From the NCBI RefSeq assembly GCF_030816485.1, contig NZ_JAUSYC010000001.1, positions 2,108,001 to 2,172,000 of the forward strand: DNA of 64,000 nucleotides, written 5' to 3'. A program made the translations under genes and the position numbers. Below are positions 23,819 to 31,002 of this stretch, piece after piece; within the stretch, counting starts at the first letter, position 1, and every line of letters starts with the position of its first letter. The DNA is from Arthrobacter sp. B1I2 (lineage in GTDB: Bacteria; Actinomycetota; Actinomycetes; Actinomycetales; Micrococcaceae). The notes under the pieces were generated by a model. That model worked only from the letters and a program-made list of their open reading frames with translations, was not told the origin of the DNA and made no database searches.

Positions 23819-24012
23819 GGCGGATATCCGAGTCGAAAATGTAGGGTCGTCTCCGGGGCGGGATGTCAGTATCGAAGGGGATCATCAGGGGCGAATCAGA
23901 GTGGGGTCCGCGACGGCAACTGACATGTGATTTTGATCTGCCCGAAACATACCGGTGCTCCTGCTCTTATACGCTTGAGGGAGAGATTTTCCCGGAAGGA
24001 ATGCAGCAGCAT

Positions 24013-24852
24013 ATGGAAACCACGGACGCCGTCGTAAAGCCCGTCATCGGCCTTAGCACCTACCTCGAGCAGGCAGGTACTGCCGGTTGTGGTGACGTCA
24101 GCGCGGCGTTCCTGCCGGAGACGTACCTTGCGCCCGTCATCGCTGCAGGCGGCATCCCCGTCCTCCTGCCGCCGCAGCCCGTGGCGGCAGGCGTGATCGA
24201 GGTCTTGGTGAGCAGGTTGGACGGCCTGCTGATCCCTGGCGGCTGGGACATTGACCCGGCTCTCTACGGCCAGGAACCCCACCCCAGTACCGACCGGCCA
24301 CGGCCCGAACGCGACGCCTGGGAACAGGCCCTGATCCGCGAAGCCATCCGCCAGGACATTCCGCTGCTGTGCATCTGCCGCGGCGAGCAGCTGCTGAACG
24401 TCACCCTCGGCGGCACGCTGCACCAGCACCTGCCCGAGGTGGTTGGCCACGGCGGGCACCAGTTGGGCGGCTTCCAGTACAACCGGATCCCGGTCGAGGT
24501 GGGACCTGGATCCCAGCTCGCGCAGCTCATCGGTTCCGATGTCCAGATGGTTCCCGTGGCCCACCACCAGGCGGTCAACAAGCTGGGGGAAGGCCTGGTT
24601 GCCTCCGCCTGGACCGAAGAACAGGTGGTGGAGGCGATCGAGTACCCCGCAGCCACCTTTGCCCTGGGCATCCAGTGGCACCCGGAGGAACTTTCCGAGG
24701 ATTACGGGCTCTTCCAGGGGTTCGTCGAAGCAGCCCGGGCAAAGTACCTGTCCCGGCTGCGTCCGGCAGCGCCGTCGTCCATTGCCGACTCGGCCGCCTC
24801 CTTTTTGCCCGGTTCGACGCCGGCGATTTCCGTTCACCCCGAAGCCTTTTGA
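24013..24852 (+). CDS. Class I glutamine amidotransferase-like hydrolase, PuuD-like
   Basis: 279 aa from ATG 24013 (GGAAGGA 12 bases before it); ATG 24001 is possible. The catalytic triad of the class I amidotransferase fold is visible: Cys122 in CICRGEQLLNV, and His223 and Glu225 in QWHPEE. LIPGGWDIDPALYG is the conserved oxyanion-side block. PuuD cleaves gamma-glutamyl-GABA; relatives hydrolyse other gamma-glutamyl amides. It precedes the YbdK-decarboxylase-AsnB-M20 operon by 220 bp, on the same strand, which fits gamma-glutamyl chemistry. The C-terminal 40 residues after YLSRL are an unstructured extension. Confidence 0.88.
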   Translation: METTDAVVKPVIGLSTYLEQAGTAGCGDVSAAFLPETYLAPVIAAGGIPVLLPPQPVAAGVIEVLVSRLDGLLIPGGWDIDPALYGQEPHPSTDRPRPERDAWEQALIREAIRQDIPLLCICRGEQLLNVTLGGTLHQHLPEVVGHGGHQLGGFQYNRIPVEVGPGSQLAQLIGSDVQMVPVAHHQAVNKLGEGLVASAWTEEQVVEAIEYPAATFALGIQWHPEELSEDYGLFQGFVEAARAKYLSRLRPAAPSSIADSAASFLPGSTPAISVHPEAF

Positions 24853-24923
24853 CCTGCGGAAACACCCCCTAAGGGGCTCGTCGCAGGCGATACGCGCCAC
24901 ACCTCTACCTTGCCGCGCATAAC

Positions 24924-24935
24924 TAAGCATGCTTA
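24924..24935. promoter_or_regulatory. Palindrome upstream of the YbdK operon
   Basis: TAAGCATGCTTA is a perfect 12-bp palindrome in an AT-rich patch of an otherwise GC-rich spacer, about 140 bp before the YbdK start. It looks like a MarR-type operator or a strong promoter element. The regulator is not in the window. Confidence 0.4.
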
Positions 24936-25071
24936 CTATGTGGGCGTACGGTGAAGCAGCCGCCCTACGGTTCATTGACCTTGGGAGCGTTGTGGCTGAC
25001 CTTACCCGGAATTGCTTGGTATCCGCAGTTGGGCGGGTCGTTGCCCAGTTGCATTGCATCGGAAGTGTGCG

Positions 25072-26274
25072 ATGACGCGCAGAGTGGGTGTTGAAGAAGA
25101 GTTCCTGATTGTCGACGGCGCCTGTGGTTACCCCGTTGCGCTGGGCGGCACGCTGCAGCGCGTCGCGGAATATCCCAACCTCAGCAGCGAGATGAAGCAG
25201 GAGCAGATTGAAACCTGCACGTTCCCCCGGCTGACCCTCTCGGAAATCGCCCAGGACATCACGGCGGGGCGCCGGAACGCGGACGCCCTGGCGCGCCTGG
25301 CCGGAGCCAGGGCTGTTGCGCTTGCAACGTCTCCGCTGCCTGTCGACTCCACCGTGGCGCCCGGCGAACGCTGTGGGCAGCTGATGGAACGGTACGGGCT
25401 GACTGCAGTGGAGCAGCTCACCTGCGGCTGCCACGTGCATGTGGAGATCGAGTCGGACGAGGAAGGCGTCGCCATCCTGGACCGCATCCGGATCTGGCTG
25501 CCGGTCCTGCAGGCCCTCGCCTCAAACTCGCCCTTTTGGAATGGAACAGATTCGGGCTATGCGGGCTACCGCTCCCAGGCGTGGAACCGGTGGCCCACCA
25601 CCGGGCCGAGTGGGATCTTCGGGTCGGCCGCCGCCTACCACGCGCATGTCCGGCAGATCCTCGGCTCCGCTGTCCCCCTGGACAAGGCAAGCCTCTACTT
25701 CGATGCCCGGCTCAGCGACCGCCATCCCACCGTGGAGGTCCGGGTGGCTGACGTCTGTCTCTTCGCGGACGACGCTGTCCTGGTGGCCGCACTGGTCCGG
25801 GCACTGGCAGAAACGGCCGTCCGGCAGTGGCGCGACGGCGTGTCCCCGGCGCCCGTGCCCGCCGCCCAGTTGCGGCTCGCCTCCTGGCAGGCCAGCCGCT
25901 TCGGGCTGGAGACTGATCTCCTCGATCCCGTTGCCGGGGAACCGCGGTCCGCGTCCGACGTGCTGGCAGCCCTGCTGGACCACGTCCGTCCAGTGCTGGA
26001 AGAGCAGGGCGAACTGGCCACAGTGGAGTTGCTGCTGTTCCAGGTGATGACCCGGGGCACCGGGGCCATTGCGCAGCGGGAGGGGTTCGTCCGGACCGGC
26101 GGTCTTCCGGGCATGATCGCCCAGGCCATCGACACCACCGCCCTGCCCGCCACCTCCGTCCGGGGGCAGGCTGGGCCTACCCGCCGCAGGCAGGGTGACA
26201 CCAGCCGGGTGCGCGGGCAGGCTCCGATGCACCCCCGGGGCGGCACGCCGCAGCTGGACAACCAGACCCTGTAA
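25072..26274 (+). CDS. YbdK-family carboxylate-amine ligase (glutamate-cysteine ligase 2 fold)
   Basis: 400 aa with the family start VGVEEEFLIVD (residues 5-15), which supplies metal-binding Glu residues. It also has the His block CGCHVHVEI and the late blocks PTVEVRVADVC and LFQVMTRGTGA. YbdK-type enzymes use ATP to join the carboxyl of glutamate to an amine; weak glutamate-cysteine ligation is known for one member. ATG 25072 has GGAAG at 6 bases. It opens a four-gene operon (21-bp gap to the next gene). Its amine acceptor is unknown; the neighbouring decarboxylase product is one candidate. The last 45 residues are Pro/Arg-rich and disordered. Confidence 0.88.
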   Translation: MTRRVGVEEEFLIVDGACGYPVALGGTLQRVAEYPNLSSEMKQEQIETCTFPRLTLSEIAQDITAGRRNADALARLAGARAVALATSPLPVDSTVAPGERCGQLMERYGLTAVEQLTCGCHVHVEIESDEEGVAILDRIRIWLPVLQALASNSPFWNGTDSGYAGYRSQAWNRWPTTGPSGIFGSAAAYHAHVRQILGSAVPLDKASLYFDARLSDRHPTVEVRVADVCLFADDAVLVAALVRALAETAVRQWRDGVSPAPVPAAQLRLASWQASRFGLETDLLDPVAGEPRSASDVLAALLDHVRPVLEEQGELATVELLLFQVMTRGTGAIAQREGFVRTGGLPGMIAQAIDTTALPATSVRGQAGPTRRRQGDTSRVRGQAPMHPRGGTPQLDNQTL

Positions 26275-26295
26275 ACCGACAGCAGGAGGTCCCCC

Positions 26296-27792
26296 TTGGG
26301 CCAGAATGAATTGGACCAGAACCAGGCACCGGTGGTTGACGCCCTGGCAGAACACCAGAAGTTGGAACGGTACGGCTTCACCCCGCCGGCCCACCGCCAG
26401 GGCCGGGGCGTGGACCCCCGGGTGCTGGAGGTGCTGGGGGAGCAAAGCTTCAAGGCCGACGTCGTTGCCTCCTCGGGCTTGGACGACCGCAAGTCCTCCA
26501 ACGGCTACCTGTCCAAAGCTGAAGAACTTCTGGCGGCCGCCGTGGGTGCCGATCAGGCCTTCTTCTCCACCTGCGGCAGCTCCCTGTCCATCAAGGCCGC
26601 CATCCTGGCCGTGACCCGCGGCGAAGGGGAGCTCCTGATCAGCCGGGACGCGCACAAGTCCGTGGTGTCCGGCCTGGTCCTGTCCGGGCTGCAGCCGCGG
26701 TGGATCAAGCCCCGCTGGGACGAAGAGCTGAAGATGAGCCACCCGCCGGCACCGGAGACCGTGGAGGAAATGTGGCAGCGCTACCCGGATGCCTCCGCAG
26801 CCCTGATCGTGAGCCCCACCCCCTACGGCACCTGCGCGGACATCGAAGCCATCGCTGAGATCTGCCACAAACGGGGCAAACCGCTGATCGTGGACGAAGC
26901 GTGGGGCGCACAGTTGCCCTTCCACCCCGACACCCCCACCTGGGCCATGTCCGCCGGCGCGGACATCTGCGTGGTCAGCGTCCACAAGATGGGCCTGGGG
27001 TTTGAACAGGGCTCCATCTTCCACCTGCAAGGAAACCTGGTGGACCCGGTCCGGCTCAACCAGTGCGCCGACGTCCTCTCCACCACCAGCGCCAACACCC
27101 TGATCTACGGGGCCATGGACGGCTGGCGGCGGCAGATGGTGCAGGAAGGCAAGGCCATGATCGACCGAGCGCTGGACCTGGCCCGCCGGGTGCGCAGGGA
27201 GATCGGGGACATCCCGGGGCTGCACGTCCTGGAGGACGAGCTGGTCCATGCCGAGGCCTCCCACGACCTGGACATCCTGCACATCCTGATCGACGTGTCG
27301 CAGCTGGGCATCAGCGGCTACCAGGCGACGGACTGGATGCGGGAGAACTGCCGGATTGACCTGGGCACCAACGACCACCGACGGACGGAGGCGGTGATTT
27401 CCGTTTCCGACGACGACGAAACTGCCGACCGGCTGCTGGCCGGACTGCGCCAACTGGCAGACGCCGCGCCGTCCCTGCCGCGACCACCCGCCGTCGTCAT
27501 CCCCAAGGAGGAGGACCTTTTCCTGGAAACCGTGATGCTGCCCCGCGACGCCTTCTTTGGGCCTGTGGAAGTCATTCCCGTGGAGGAATCGCCGGGCCGG
27601 ATCGCGGCGGAAATGGCCACCCCGTACCCGCCCGGAGTCCCGCTCCTGCTGCCCGGCGAACGGATCAACCAGGCAGCCATCGACTATCTGCGGAGCGGCG
27701 TGGAAGCAGGAATGGTCCTGCCCGATCCCGCCGACCCGTCCCTGAAGACCATCCGCGTGGTGCGCGAAGAACACCATAAACGGCAGCAGTAG
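26296..27792 (+). CDS. Orn/Lys/Arg decarboxylase family PLP enzyme
   Basis: 498 aa. The PLP site is clear: Lys231 in SVHKMG forms the Schiff base, Asp200 in IVDEAWGAQ binds the pyridine nitrogen, and His120 in SRDAHKS stacks on the ring. The usual DEAHGAH motif reads DEAWGAQ. It resembles the short actinobacterial form without the N-terminal wing domain, with the C-terminal domain ending PLLLPGERI. The start is TTG 26296, with AGGAGG 6 bases before it. The likely product is cadaverine, agmatine or putrescine, made inside the operon next to a glutamate ligase. Substrate not determined. Confidence 0.88.
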   Translation: MGQNELDQNQAPVVDALAEHQKLERYGFTPPAHRQGRGVDPRVLEVLGEQSFKADVVASSGLDDRKSSNGYLSKAEELLAAAVGADQAFFSTCGSSLSIKAAILAVTRGEGELLISRDAHKSVVSGLVLSGLQPRWIKPRWDEELKMSHPPAPETVEEMWQRYPDASAALIVSPTPYGTCADIEAIAEICHKRGKPLIVDEAWGAQLPFHPDTPTWAMSAGADICVVSVHKMGLGFEQGSIFHLQGNLVDPVRLNQCADVLSTTSANTLIYGAMDGWRRQMVQEGKAMIDRALDLARRVRREIGDIPGLHVLEDELVHAEASHDLDILHILIDVSQLGISGYQATDWMRENCRIDLGTNDHRRTEAVISVSDDDETADRLLAGLRQLADAAPSLPRPPAVVIPKEEDLFLETVMLPRDAFFGPVEVIPVEESPGRIAAEMATPYPPGVPLLLPGERINQAAIDYLRSGVEAGMVLPDPADPSLKTIRVVREEHHKRQQ

Positions 27793-27828
27793 TACCCGAA
27801 AAGTGGCAGTAAAGAGCAAGGAACAACC

Positions 27829-29610
27829 ATGTGTGGCATAGCCGGCGAAATCGCATTCAATGGCAGGGCGGCGTCGGGGGAAGCAGTTCTGAAAATCATG
27901 GGGGCCATGGCCTCCAGGGGACCGGACGGAAGGGGAAGCTGGAACGGCGGCTGGGTGGCTCTGGGGCACCGGCGGCTCAGCATCATCGACCTTTCCGAGG
28001 CAGGGGCGCAGCCCATGGAGGACGACGGCGGCCTGACCGTCACCTTCAACGGCTGCATCTACAACTACCAGGAGCTGCGCCGGGAGCTGGAGCCGGAGTT
28101 CCGCTTCCGCTCAACCAGCGACACGGAGGTGATCCTCAAGGCCTACCGGAAATGGAGTGACGACTTTGTCCACCACCTTGTGGGCATGTTCGCGATCGCC
28201 ATTTACGATCCGCAGCGGGCGGAGGTCCTCCTGGTCCGCGACCGGCTGGGTATCAAGCCGCTCTACGTGGCCGCGCTTCCGGGGAAGCTGCGCTTCGCCT
28301 CCACGCTGCCCGCGCTGGCGGCTTCCGGCGGGATCGACACGGGCATTGACGAGGTGGCGCTGCACCACTACCTGAGCTGGCACTCGATCGTCCCGGCGCC
28401 GCGCACCATCCTGCGGGGTGTCCGGAAGCTGCCGGCCGCCACCATCCGCACCGTCCGTGCCGACGGCACGTGGCAGGACCGCGAGTACTGGCGTCCGGAC
28501 TACATCCGGAAACCGGAGCATGCCGGCTGGTCAGCCGTCGACTGGCGTGACGCCGTGCGGGATGCGTTGAGGACAGCAGTACGACGGCGGATGGTTGCCG
28601 ATGTGCCGGTGGGTGTCCTTTTGTCCGGCGGACTGGATTCGAGCCTCCTGGTTGCCCTGCTCGCCGAGGAAGGCCAGCATGGGTTGTCCACGTTCAGCAT
28701 CGGGTTCGACGACGGCGCGGGCGGCGACGCCGGAAACGAGTTCGAGTACTCCGATCTGGTGGCGCGCGAATTCGGTACCCGGCACGAGCGGCTGCACGTG
28801 CCCACGGCCGATTTTGCGCCCTCGATTGCCGGTGCCCTGGACGCGATGTCCGAGCCCATGGCCAGCCACGACGTCACCGCCTTCCACTTGCTCTCCGACA
28901 CCGTGTCCCGGCACCTGAAAGTAGTGCAGTGCGGACAGGGCGCCGATGAGGTGTTTGGCGGGTACGAATACCACCAGCCGCTGGCCGGCGTCGCCCGGGA
29001 CCAGGCCCTGGCCGCCTTCACGGCCTCCTTCGTTGACCACAGCCACGAAGAGCTCCTCGGCATCCTGGAGCCGGAATGGCTGCCAGGCTCCGACGTCAGC
29101 CGCAAAGTGCTCGCCGACCACCTGCAGGCACCCGGAGCCGACACCGCCCTGGACGCGGTCCTCCGGCTGGACACGCACCTGCTCATGGTGGACGATCCGG
29201 TGAAGCGGCTGGACAACATGAGCATGGCCTGGGGGCTGGAGGCCCGGGTGCCGTTCCTGGACCACGAACTGGTGGAGCTTGCCGGGGCCTGCCCGCCGGA
29301 ACTGAAGGCAAGCCAGGGCGGCAAGGGAATCCTGAAGGACCTGGGCCGGCAACTGCTCCCATCGGCCGTGATCGACCGCCCCAAGGGGTACTTCCCGGTC
29401 CCGGCGCTGCGGCACCTGGAAGAACCATTCATCACCATGGTCGCCGATGCCCTCCACGCGCCCGAGGCCAAGCAGCGCGGCCTCTTCCGCCCCGAGTACA
29501 TCGACGGGCTGCTGGCGGATCCCAACAGCCAGCGGACCCCGGTGAAGAGCAACGTCCTGTGGCAGTTCGCACTGCTGGAAATGTGGCTGCAGCGCCACGG
29601 GGTGGGGTAG
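27829..29610 (+). CDS. AsnB-type glutamine-dependent amidotransferase (N-acetylglutaminylglutamine amidotransferase-like)
   Basis: 593 aa. It starts MCGIAGE, so Cys2 is the glutaminase nucleophile. The N-terminal Ntn domain includes RGPDGRG, and the synthetase domain has the pyrophosphatase loop SGGLDSS (266-272). The C-terminal PKGYFPVPALR block is typical of the AsnO-like branch that makes N-acetylglutaminylglutamine amide, rather than of asparagine synthetase proper. The usual partner there, an ATP-grasp/GNAT Ngg synthetase, is absent; a YbdK ligase stands in its place. It probably amidates a carboxyl group of an operon product using glutamine nitrogen. The next gene starts 3 bp after its stop. 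Confidence 0.88.
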   Translation: MCGIAGEIAFNGRAASGEAVLKIMGAMASRGPDGRGSWNGGWVALGHRRLSIIDLSEAGAQPMEDDGGLTVTFNGCIYNYQELRRELEPEFRFRSTSDTEVILKAYRKWSDDFVHHLVGMFAIAIYDPQRAEVLLVRDRLGIKPLYVAALPGKLRFASTLPALAASGGIDTGIDEVALHHYLSWHSIVPAPRTILRGVRKLPAATIRTVRADGTWQDREYWRPDYIRKPEHAGWSAVDWRDAVRDALRTAVRRRMVADVPVGVLLSGGLDSSLLVALLAEEGQHGLSTFSIGFDDGAGGDAGNEFEYSDLVAREFGTRHERLHVPTADFAPSIAGALDAMSEPMASHDVTAFHLLSDTVSRHLKVVQCGQGADEVFGGYEYHQPLAGVARDQALAAFTASFVDHSHEELLGILEPEWLPGSDVSRKVLADHLQAPGADTALDAVLRLDTHLLMVDDPVKRLDNMSMAWGLEARVPFLDHELVELAGACPPELKASQGGKGILKDLGRQLLPSAVIDRPKGYFPVPALRHLEEPFITMVADALHAPEAKQRGLFRPEYIDGLLADPNSQRTPVKSNVLWQFALLEMWLQRHGVG

Positions 29611-29613
29611 GGC

Positions 29614-31002
29614 ATGGCGCGTCTGGGCCAGGAGGTCCTGGCCGGTCTCCGGCACGCTGTCCGCGGTGACTTTCCCGCCGTCATCGGGGAACTTTCGGCG
29701 CTGGTCCGCATCCCCGCGATGGCGTGGGACTCGTTCGACCCCTCCCAGCTGGACCAGGCCGCCCAGCAGGTGGCGGGCCTGGTCCGCGAAGCCGGCCTTA
29801 CCGACGTCGACATCCTGCAGGGACCACGCCCTGATGGAAAGCCCGGCGCGCCGGCCGTGGTGGGACGCCGTCCGGCCCTTCCCGGCAAACCCACCATTCT
29901 GCTGTACGCGCACTACGACGTCCAGCCCGCCGGCCAGCTGGAGCTGTGGGAGAGCCCGCCGTTCGAGGCGCTGGAGCGCGGCGGGCGGCTGTGGGGCAGG
30001 GGAGTGGCGGACAACAAGGCGGGGGTGCTGCTGCACGTGGCCGCCGTCCGCAACGCCCTACGGGTCCTGGGTGACGATCTTGGCGTCGGCGTGACGGTGT
30101 TCATTGACGGAGAGGAGGAGGCAGGCTCGCCGTCGCTGCCCCTGCTGCTGCAGCAGCACGCCGACCTGCTGCGGGCCGACGTGCTGGTGGTGGCCGACTC
30201 CGGGAACTGGAAGGTGGGCGTGCCGGCGCTGACCACCAGCCTGCGCGGGCTGGTCCTGGGCACCATCGAGGTCCGGGTGCTGGAGCACGCCCTGCATTCC
30301 GGGACATATGGCGGGCCGCTGGTGGATGCCGTTGCGGCGCTGTCCCGGCTTCTCGCGTCCTTCCATCACGACGACGGGAGCGTGGCGGTGGAGGGCCTGC
30401 CGGCTTCGGAGGAGCCGGGCCCGTCCTTGACCGAAGCCGAGTTCAGGGCGGATTCGCGGGTCCGTCCGGGAGTGCCGCTGGCCGGCAGCGGCAGCATCAC
30501 GTCGCGGTTATGGACCAAGCCGGCCCTGGCCATCATCGGGATCGACGCGCCGTCCGTGGCGCTGTCCTCCGACACACTGCAGCCGGCGGCCCGGGCGCGG
30601 TTCAGCCTCAGCCTGGCGCCGTCCTCTGATACGGCGGCTGCCATGGAGGCGGTCCGGCGGCATGTGGAAGACCATGTGCCGTTCGGCGCCGAGGTGGTAT
30701 TCACCCCGGGCGGGCGGACGGAGGGGTTTGCAGGGGACGCGTCCTCGCCTGCCTCCCGTTCGATGCTCCACGTCATGGGTGAGGTGTGGCGTGTGCCGGC
30801 GGTGTCAATGGGAGTGGGCGGATCCATTCCCGCCGTCAACATCCTGAACAAGCTGTACCCGGAATCGGAAATCCTGATCACGGGTGCCGAGGACCCCGAT
30901 TCGCGGGCGCACGGAGCCAACGAGTCCATCCACCTTGGCGATTTCGGGAACGCCATCGTGGCCGAGGCCCTGCTGCTGGCCCGCCTCAACGCCGGGCACT
31001 GA
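29614..31002 (+). CDS. M20 family dipeptidase
   Basis: 462 aa. Zinc ligands and catalytic residues are visible: His100 and Asp102 in YAHYDVQPAG, Asp133 in GRGVADNKAG, the Glu cluster 167-169 in DGEEEAGS, and Asp194 in VVADSGN. The lid domain sits between about 205 and 330. These enzymes split dipeptides or N-acylated amino acids, or reverse such bonds. It is the last gene of the YbdK-decarboxylase-AsnB operon and starts 3 bp after the amidotransferase stop. It may trim or recycle the operon's dipeptide-like product. There is no signal peptide. Confidence 0.9.
   Translation: MARLGQEVLAGLRHAVRGDFPAVIGELSALVRIPAMAWDSFDPSQLDQAAQQVAGLVREAGLTDVDILQGPRPDGKPGAPAVVGRRPALPGKPTILLYAHYDVQPAGQLELWESPPFEALERGGRLWGRGVADNKAGVLLHVAAVRNALRVLGDDLGVGVTVFIDGEEEAGSPSLPLLLQQHADLLRADVLVVADSGNWKVGVPALTTSLRGLVLGTIEVRVLEHALHSGTYGGPLVDAVAALSRLLASFHHDDGSVAVEGLPASEEPGPSLTEAEFRADSRVRPGVPLAGSGSITSRLWTKPALAIIGIDAPSVALSSDTLQPAARARFSLSLAPSSDTAAAMEAVRRHVEDHVPFGAEVVFTPGGRTEGFAGDASSPASRSMLHVMGEVWRVPAVSMGVGGSIPAVNILNKLYPESEILITGAEDPDSRAHGANESIHLGDFGNAIVAEALLLARLNAGH

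Follow-up and report, generated by a model that had tools for sequence, protein, structure and literature searches.

How does an amidotransferase related to those of N-acetylglutaminylglutamine amide (NAGGN), a recognised bacterial osmolyte, find a substrate where Ngg, the synthetase of the NAGGN pathway, is missing and another kind of ligase stands beside it? The question arises from five plus-strand genes in a 64,000-nucleotide stretch of a Micrococcaceae genome (G000:C1:2108001-2172000, hereafter the window), whose family was assigned via named relatives such as Arthrobacter sp. ISL-85. In order, the genes encode a C26 / PuuD-like hydrolase with the class I glutamine-amidotransferase fold, a YbdK-family carboxylate-amine (glutamate) ligase, a short Orn/Lys/Arg-type pyridoxal phosphate-dependent decarboxylase, an AsnO-type (NAGGN-family, AsnB-like) glutamine-dependent amidotransferase, and an M20 dipeptidase-like metallopeptidase. 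We consider it fairly likely that this operon represents a second, YbdK-dependent form of the amide-forming systems built on AsnO (NAGGN-type) enzymes.

The AsnO-type protein (27829..29610) scored 862 bits against TIGR03104, the NAGGN amidotransferase family (cut-off 570), the top scorer among the nine NCBIfam models listed for it, and carries Gln370 at the position of E. coli AsnB Glu348. It is the one long TIGR03104 match in its own genome, which has two further, short and weak ones. The ligase frame opens at TTG 25012, but the family match begins at ATG 25072, so the gene likely spans 25072..26274; its product matched TIGR02050 (268 bits, cut-off 176), NF010041 (442 bits, cut-off 332) and, above cut-off, PF04107, with YbdK itself (1r8g) and 1tt4 as relatives in the PDB. 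GVEEE close to its N-terminus agrees with the GhExE signature of GCS2-type ligases described in an excerpt of PMC2588565.

The first gene (23863..24852, or from ATG 24013, the start chosen in an earlier note on this DNA) probably encodes a gamma-glutamyl hydrolase, as judged from its family. It matched PF07722 at 214 bits, above the Pfam cut-off, and is related to Lin1909 (3fij) and PuuD (6vtv) in the PDB; against the PuuD equivalog NF008471 it reached 109 bits, below the cut-off of 266. The decarboxylase (26296..27792) matched PF01276 (164 bits) and PF03711 (53 bits), both above cut-off. Its shortness is reflected in an LdcC profile match starting at profile position 123, its PDB relatives are mixed (AdiA, LdcC, 2x3l), and the substrate labels in source records differ between arginine, ornithine and lysine. 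The last gene (29614..31002) belongs to the PRK07907 subfamily of M20 (NF005914, 518 bits, cut-off 300). Strings that we take to be catalytic motifs are present in the translations: CRG and QWHPEE in C26, SVHK in the decarboxylase, Cys2 and SGGLDSS in the AsnO-type protein, and YAHYDVQP, DGEEE and HGANESIH in M20.

The last four genes are separated by 21, 36 and 3 bp. Between C26 and YbdK lie 219 bp (24853..25071), and C26 may be transcribed on its own; a scan for promoters and terminators was uninformative, with no sigma-70-like match in this gap, and Rfam at gathering cut-offs gave no match anywhere in the window. The earlier note had proposed this gene order with these gaps, these enzyme families and a place for the amidotransferase in the NAGGN branch; open reading frames and the NCBIfam and Pfam matches bear it out on all of these.

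YbdK in the place of Ngg

According to passages of PMC8070244 and PMC5563000, Ngg acetylates glutamine and joins a second glutamine to it, after which AsnO amidates the second glutamine. Consistent with the absence of Ngg that the earlier note had reported, none of the 36 Micrococcaceae genomes bearing the AsnO-type gene, the window's own included, had a TIGR03103 match above the cut-off of 569, the best reaching 135 bits (G093), and no ngg gene adjoined the operon in the relatives' loci. That Ngg is encoded elsewhere in the genome was rejected on the same lack of a match. The M42 protein of locus L015 was unmatched by tblastn (E 1e-15) within 7 kb of the AsnO-type gene in the window and 38 further Micrococcaceae loci; the TIGR03106 hidden Markov model was not run on these loci.

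The same replacement was observed well beyond this family. Relatives of the AsnO-type protein were taken from a one-genome-per-species collection as the best 80 among the matches listed, with neighbours considered within 7 kb; YbdK accompanied 41 of them, Ngg 35, neither 4 and both none. A less biased set sampled the class evenly with 394 genomes. It contained 106 genomes with TIGR03104 above cut-off and 107 loci, of which 105 were examined in stretches of about 13 kb. Here, YbdK was found at 49 loci, Ngg at 49, neither at seven (L189 and L252 at contig ends, the other five with an S9 gene only) and both at none. Pooled over all sets, 211 distinct AsnO-type sequences comprised 108 with YbdK, 80 with Ngg, 23 with neither and none with both. 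About 1% of AsnO-type genes would have YbdK nearby by chance (a rough estimate from the four such ligases in the window's own 4.7-Mb genome), against the 49 of 105 seen. Loci within one genus are non-independent, so a Fisher value of 9e-23 overstates the evidence. YbdK in Ngg's place, as the earlier note had described it for this operon, is a recurrent pattern across actinobacteria and not a local oddity.

Ngg lay downstream of the AsnO-type gene on the same strand in all 49 class-wide Ngg loci. YbdK occurred in four arrangements: upstream or downstream of the AsnO-type gene in the same direction, downstream of it in convergent orientation and, in a single case, upstream of it in the opposite orientation. 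Its closeness to the AsnO-type gene is thus kept while the order changes. In L083 it is fused in one long frame with a circularly permuted ATP-grasp domain (PF14403, 399 bits, Pfam), and long YbdK frames were found at most other loci of the Frankia, Pseudonocardia and Actinoplanes types, then mostly with an S9 peptidase gene. Some genomes carry both kinds of locus: Verrucosispora sioxanthis (L010/L072), Micromonospora gifhornensis (L011/L070) and G567 (L275/L284). This suggests that the two kinds are probably not redundant. As a separate observation, a C26 homologue (49-53% identity) lies 1.7-5 kb upstream of the AsnO-type gene, on the opposite strand, in 14 of the 105 class-wide loci, every one of them Ngg-linked (L183-L185, L187, L188, L190, L191, L194, L198, L201-L203, L207 and L223).

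Phylogeny separated the two kinds as well. A tree of 113 proteins placed all 35 Ngg-linked rows on one side of a branch with a Shimodaira-Hasegawa-like approximate likelihood ratio (SH-aLRT) support of 83. In a tree of 222 rows (213 different), which included AsnO of Sinorhizobium, Azospirillum and Shinella, the 87 Ngg-linked rows, these three proteobacterial ones among them, formed one group together with L252, a sequence cut at a contig end (SH-aLRT 80), and the other sampled branches were filled by YbdK-linked rows. The trees exclude L005-L008, duplicates of L132, L133, L135 and L138, and nine class-wide sequences among the alignment and tree rows duplicate others. With E. coli AsnB as the root, pairing with YbdK would seem to precede pairing with Ngg in this sample; this root is unreliable, because the E. 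coli branch measures 5.25 changes per column and the first splits are supported at 0 and 20.

We compared residues between 84 Ngg-linked and 86 YbdK-linked rows from outside the Micrococcaceae. All 221 columns conserved to at least 90% in both groups held the same residue, and the reaction should therefore be alike. The position of E. coli AsnB Glu348 (residue 349 when Met1 is counted) was Gln in 84/84 Ngg-linked rows, in 86/86 YbdK-linked rows and a further 27/27 from Micrococcaceae, and in 3/3 proteobacterial rows. In E. coli AsnB, Glu348 is the catalytic residue that activates aspartate, and asparagine is therefore an unlikely product of the aligned proteins. The tyrosine of the GGY motif is, we assume, located in the active site of the AsnB fold. 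The HWYP that follows it in Ngg-linked rows was changed in 27/27 YbdK-linked rows of Micrococcaceae, and His directly after GGY was present in 87/87 Ngg-linked rows, 13/86 YbdK-linked rows and 0/27 of those from Micrococcaceae. Given these four changed residues, the acceptor should differ.

The decarboxylase and the M20 peptidase are coupled

The AsnO-type gene stands between the decarboxylase and M20 genes, and where it is kept, loss of both needs two events. Nevertheless, of 29 Micrococcaceae loci, 17 had both genes intact and 11 had neither, while a single locus had only M20; in L137, remnants of both persist. Among tree-independent pairs, the two went together in 7 of 8 and opposite ways in none (p 0.016). 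Genes were scored as intact, broken or absent by hand from tblastn spans. The weakest call was the decarboxylase of L149 (70% identical, beyond C26), scored present in the main test; scoring it absent gave 6.5 of 8 pairs (median p 0.031). The M20 gene of L156, split in two by a frame break, was also scored present, and leaving it unscored changed nothing; likewise scored present was the YbdK of L150 (47% identical, downstream). The test excluded L154 (frameshifted), L155 (contig end) and L157-L164, which had no decarboxylase or M20 match.

YbdK also persists where the decarboxylase is absent. Within the 29 Micrococcaceae loci it was kept without the decarboxylase in six and lost with the decarboxylase kept in one, and 46 of the 49 class-wide YbdK loci had no decarboxylase in the stretch. 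The other three read YbdK-AsnO-S9-decarboxylase in one direction, with a last gap of 31, 44 or 155 bp and a decarboxylase 50-52% identical to that of the window. The genus of one of these three loci, that of G562, is Streptomyces-like as judged by the closest named YbdK (72% to L048). In it, 43 of 219 genomes had this AsnO-type gene and 108 of 219 such a decarboxylase, which in eight of the 43 lay 2.1-3.3 kb downstream of the AsnO-type gene on the same strand, a distance of about one gene's length. This count was read from coordinates, with a gene-by-gene view for G562 (L262) alone, and three of the eight decarboxylases were only 57% identical to the query. The earlier note had cast the decarboxylase as a possible supplier of the amine, and as an obligatory one it does not survive these counts: the decarboxylase goes with the peptidase side, which speaks, though not outright, against a necessary amine source.

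A second decarboxylase was also encountered. In L165, L166, L167 and L172 it is divergent from an M20 gene, with AsnO-type and YbdK genes absent from the stretch. In L168, L169, L170, L173 and L174 its neighbours are an Nramp gene on one side and an enolase-family gene on the other, except that L174 lacks the Nramp cluster; this placement is based on shared gene clusters and, for L168 only, on Pfam. In five genomes this second locus lies about 8-14 kb beyond the operon. No pathway emerged from the genes around the second decarboxylases.

Within the genus, the complete five-gene order was found in the window and in L127-L130, L135, L136, L138-L140, L142-L144 and L148. The operon's own YbdK and M20 can be told from paralogues by identity. 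YbdK gave 22 matches of at least 66%, the next reaching at most 59%, with paralogues in nearly all genomes; M20 was at least 68% identical in 17 genomes and at most 64% in the next, with paralogues genus-wide. Homologues scattered without linkage in most relatives, which the earlier note had named as evidence that would count against an operon, were not seen in the loci examined; the genes were linked. An operon confined to the Micrococcaceae was rejected, the YbdK-AsnO core being found across other actinobacteria.

Several loci of relatives differ in ways of their own. Genome G296 has the operon twice, intact in L130 and decayed in L132, and in L141 two YbdK genes flank the AsnO-type gene. 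Beside the decarboxylase-AsnO-M20-YbdK genes of L150 stands a 377-aa frame (L150:4519-5652) that joins the N-terminal half of M20 to a DksA/yteA-like C-terminal part; upstream is an ATP-binding cassette transporter whose best, albeit weak, matches are of the 2-aminoethylphosphonate and polyamine types. In L151-L153, the AsnO-type gene has no YbdK in the stretch and is adjoined by C26 and a nitrilase-type gene, the latter in L151 being nearest to deaminated glutathione amidase, below that model's cut-off.

A proposed pathway and its alternatives

We propose that YbdK would link glutamate, through its gamma-carboxylate, to an amine or an amino acid. The resulting gamma-glutamyl compound would be an N-substituted glutamine that offers the AsnO-type enzyme the same carboxylate as the Ngg product does, and YbdK could therefore replace Ngg without a change in AsnO chemistry. 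The AsnO-type enzyme would then amidate the free carboxylate, most simply the alpha-carboxylate of the glutamine-like unit, with glutamine nitrogen and ATP. Both the conservation of the AsnO core and the altered residues near GGY agree with such a swap of ligases. C26, by its relation to PuuD, would cut the gamma-glutamyl bond, and M20 and the decarboxylase would form a dispensable side module that most likely frees and removes a basic amino acid part; together, the three enzymes would degrade or remodel the amidated compound. By analogy with NAGGN, this compound is probably a compatible solute or a nitrogen-rich stress metabolite.

Several observations weigh against this proposal. The AsnO-type protein is patchy, with matches at E 1e-100 or better in only 29 of 206 genus genomes (177 without) and 8 of 178 family genomes sampled, and the operon has decayed in relatives such as L131, L132, L137 and L154. 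The complete order was present in 14 of 30 genus loci, the remainder having missing, rearranged or broken pieces, so the strict co-conservation across Micrococcaceae that the earlier note had looked to does not hold. One operon-type YbdK (G358:C14, 69%) sits apart from the AsnO locus of the same genome, and AsnO-type genes without nearby YbdK or Ngg made up 12 of 39 Micrococcaceae, 7 of 105 class-wide and 4 of 80 best-match loci, some at contig ends. Against TIGR01536, the model for asparagine synthase, the protein also passes with 406 bits (cut-off 267), though it scores far lower than against TIGR03104. Support for the Ngg-linked group, at 83 and 80, is moderate and the E. coli root very long. 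Furthermore, the Ngg-linked rows have 237 invariant columns, and 28 of these, most clearly the one directly after GGY, are less strictly conserved in at least one of the two YbdK-linked sets; the difference in chemistry may thus be greater than our proposal allows. Finally, we found no metabolite, expression or enzyme data on any YbdK-linked locus.

The route favoured by the earlier note shares the YbdK-AsnO core with our proposal, and its probability overlaps accordingly. In it, a diamine (putrescine, cadaverine or agmatine) comes from the decarboxylase and is joined to glutamate by YbdK, the AsnO-type enzyme amidates the alpha-carboxylate, and C26 and M20 reverse the process. The decarboxylase gene does lie directly between YbdK and AsnO, it follows AsnO at short distance in the eight G562-genus genomes, and PuuD is among the relatives of C26. 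However, six of the 29 Micrococcaceae loci and 46 of the 49 class-wide YbdK loci retain YbdK and the AsnO-type gene but no decarboxylase. The decarboxylase tracks M20, and four genomes have a second one beside an M20 gene with neither core gene in the stretch. We regard this diamine route as possible but rather doubtful. A more distant idea is that the set modifies a polymer, the AsnO-type enzyme amidating a carboxylate of peptidoglycan side chains or of a protein tag, and YbdK adding glutamate. PMC8554201 describes a Listeria AsnB that amidates meso-diaminopimelate in peptidoglycan, and an excerpt of PMC2588565 relates the Pup ligase PafA to GCS2 ligases; yet the best of the nine NCBIfam models is the dipeptide-amidating family, and the remaining genes encode small-molecule hydrolases and a decarboxylase, which makes a polymer substrate unlikely, although no search was aimed at genes for a cell wall or a tag.

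The operon might also make NAGGN itself, with YbdK performing the ligation of Ngg. The score above the NAGGN amidotransferase cut-off points this way, as do public records in which such proteins are named N-acetylglutaminylglutamine amidotransferase, one of them adjoining a GCS2 ligase. We nevertheless consider NAGGN a very unlikely product, given that no Ngg reaches the cut-off, that the two kinds of locus co-occur in some genomes (L010/L072, L011/L070) and that the residues after GGY, near-invariant in Ngg-linked proteins, are changed here. Moreover, NAGGN contains an alpha-peptide bond, and it is the gamma-carboxylate of glutamate on which ligases of the YbdK type act. Least probable of all is that the AsnO-type protein serves as the cell's asparagine synthetase among incidental neighbours. 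It is the sole long TIGR03104 match in its genome and lies above the TIGR01536 cut-off; but most genus genomes do without it, all rows of the four groups have Gln at the Glu348 position, and the linkage of the gene to YbdK is far above chance. A plain asparagine synthetase was rejected on the changed Glu348 position, and the same change argues, on sequence grounds, against an enzyme making only asparagine, the outcome by which the earlier note would have been contradicted.

Gene names and known systems

A YbdK-dependent AsnO system bears on how these genes are named. A match to the amidotransferase family alone suffices for a NAGGN gene name, and one public record places such a name directly beside a GCS2 ligase. 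As 49 of the 105 class-wide loci above the family cut-off have YbdK and no Ngg nearby, their NAGGN product names are probably wrong. The YbdK-AsnO core is apparently a widespread, mislabelled branch, and the five-gene form a patchy variant of it. We lean slightly towards a broader view, in which this AsnO branch, as common as the NAGGN branch (49 each of 105), makes one or more amidated gamma-glutamyl metabolites that are mislabelled as NAGGN biosynthesis, possibly including work on Frankia osmotolerance, and NAGGN itself is perhaps a derived offshoot of older YbdK chemistry. YbdK has only a weak known activity; a cloned YbdK-AsnO pair would serve as a two-enzyme assay for the product and would assign YbdK a physiological role.

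For Casuarina Frankia, passages of PMC5563000 report an asnO-ngg cluster in which Ngg is less than 15% identical to others and non-contiguous with asnO. Five Frankia/Pseudofrankia loci in our sets (L013, L014, L016, L046 and L049), from other strains as far as known, have YbdK with the circularly permuted ATP-grasp domain and no Ngg, and the reported case may fit a YbdK-type locus. In Frankia alni, the glutamine amidotransferase FRAAL1888, assigned to NAGGN, was up 2.2-fold with polyethylene glycol according to an excerpt of PMC5768760, and may be the AsnO-type gene of such a locus. Separately, in a sigF mutant of Mycobacterium smegmatis, MSMEG_0266 (arginine decarboxylase), MSMEG_2594 (asparagine synthase) and MSMEG_5590 (carboxylate-amine ligase) were among the genes reduced, as listed in Table 1 of PMC4694148; the three may be relatives of the operon genes.

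Among the papers listed by our literature search, most subscription papers being outside its reach, none was found that names the YbdK-AsnO pairing, and none that combines YbdK or a carboxylate-amine ligase with NAGGN or N-acetylglutaminylglutamine; one, PMC10979467, mentions N-acetylglutaminylglutamine together with glutamate-cysteine ligase. The 2009 amidoligase survey of Iyer, Abhiman, Burroughs and Aravind, which may mention the pairing, is said to have predicted pathways for peptide metabolites where genes for ATP-grasp or glutamine-synthetase-like ligases neighbour those for peptidases.

Among known systems, gamma-glutamylpolyamine catabolism, as in PuuA/PuuD of E. coli, resembles the operon in that a ligase makes a gamma-glutamyl bond and a C26 hydrolase cleaves it. 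The window differs in having a YbdK/GCS2 ligase instead of a glutamine synthetase-like one, an additional AsnO-type enzyme and a C26 protein below the PuuD cut-off. Streptomyces GlnA2/GlnA3 belong to the same catabolism, to judge by the titles of the papers on them.

The NAGGN system of Sinorhizobium and Pseudomonas (PA3459-PA3461) consists of asnO-ngg and an M42 peptidase (TIGR03104/TIGR03103/TIGR03106). The operon shares with it an AsnO-type protein above cut-off, the layout of ligase, amidotransferase and peptidase and, for YbdK-linked proteins outside the Micrococcaceae rows, identical residues in all 221 conserved columns. It departs from it in having YbdK, C26, M20 and a decarboxylase, no Ngg or M42, and altered residues after GGY. 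Also similar are the actinobacterial loci with YbdK fused to the circularly permuted ATP-grasp domain, AsnO and S9 (Frankia, Pseudonocardia, Actinoplanes) or with YbdK, AsnO and S9 (Streptomyces). These have S9 in place of M20 and C26, and many have the extra ATP-grasp domain; like the window, they combine YbdK beside an AsnO-type gene with a peptidase and no Ngg, and the three YbdK-AsnO-S9-decarboxylase loci described above have a decarboxylase as well.

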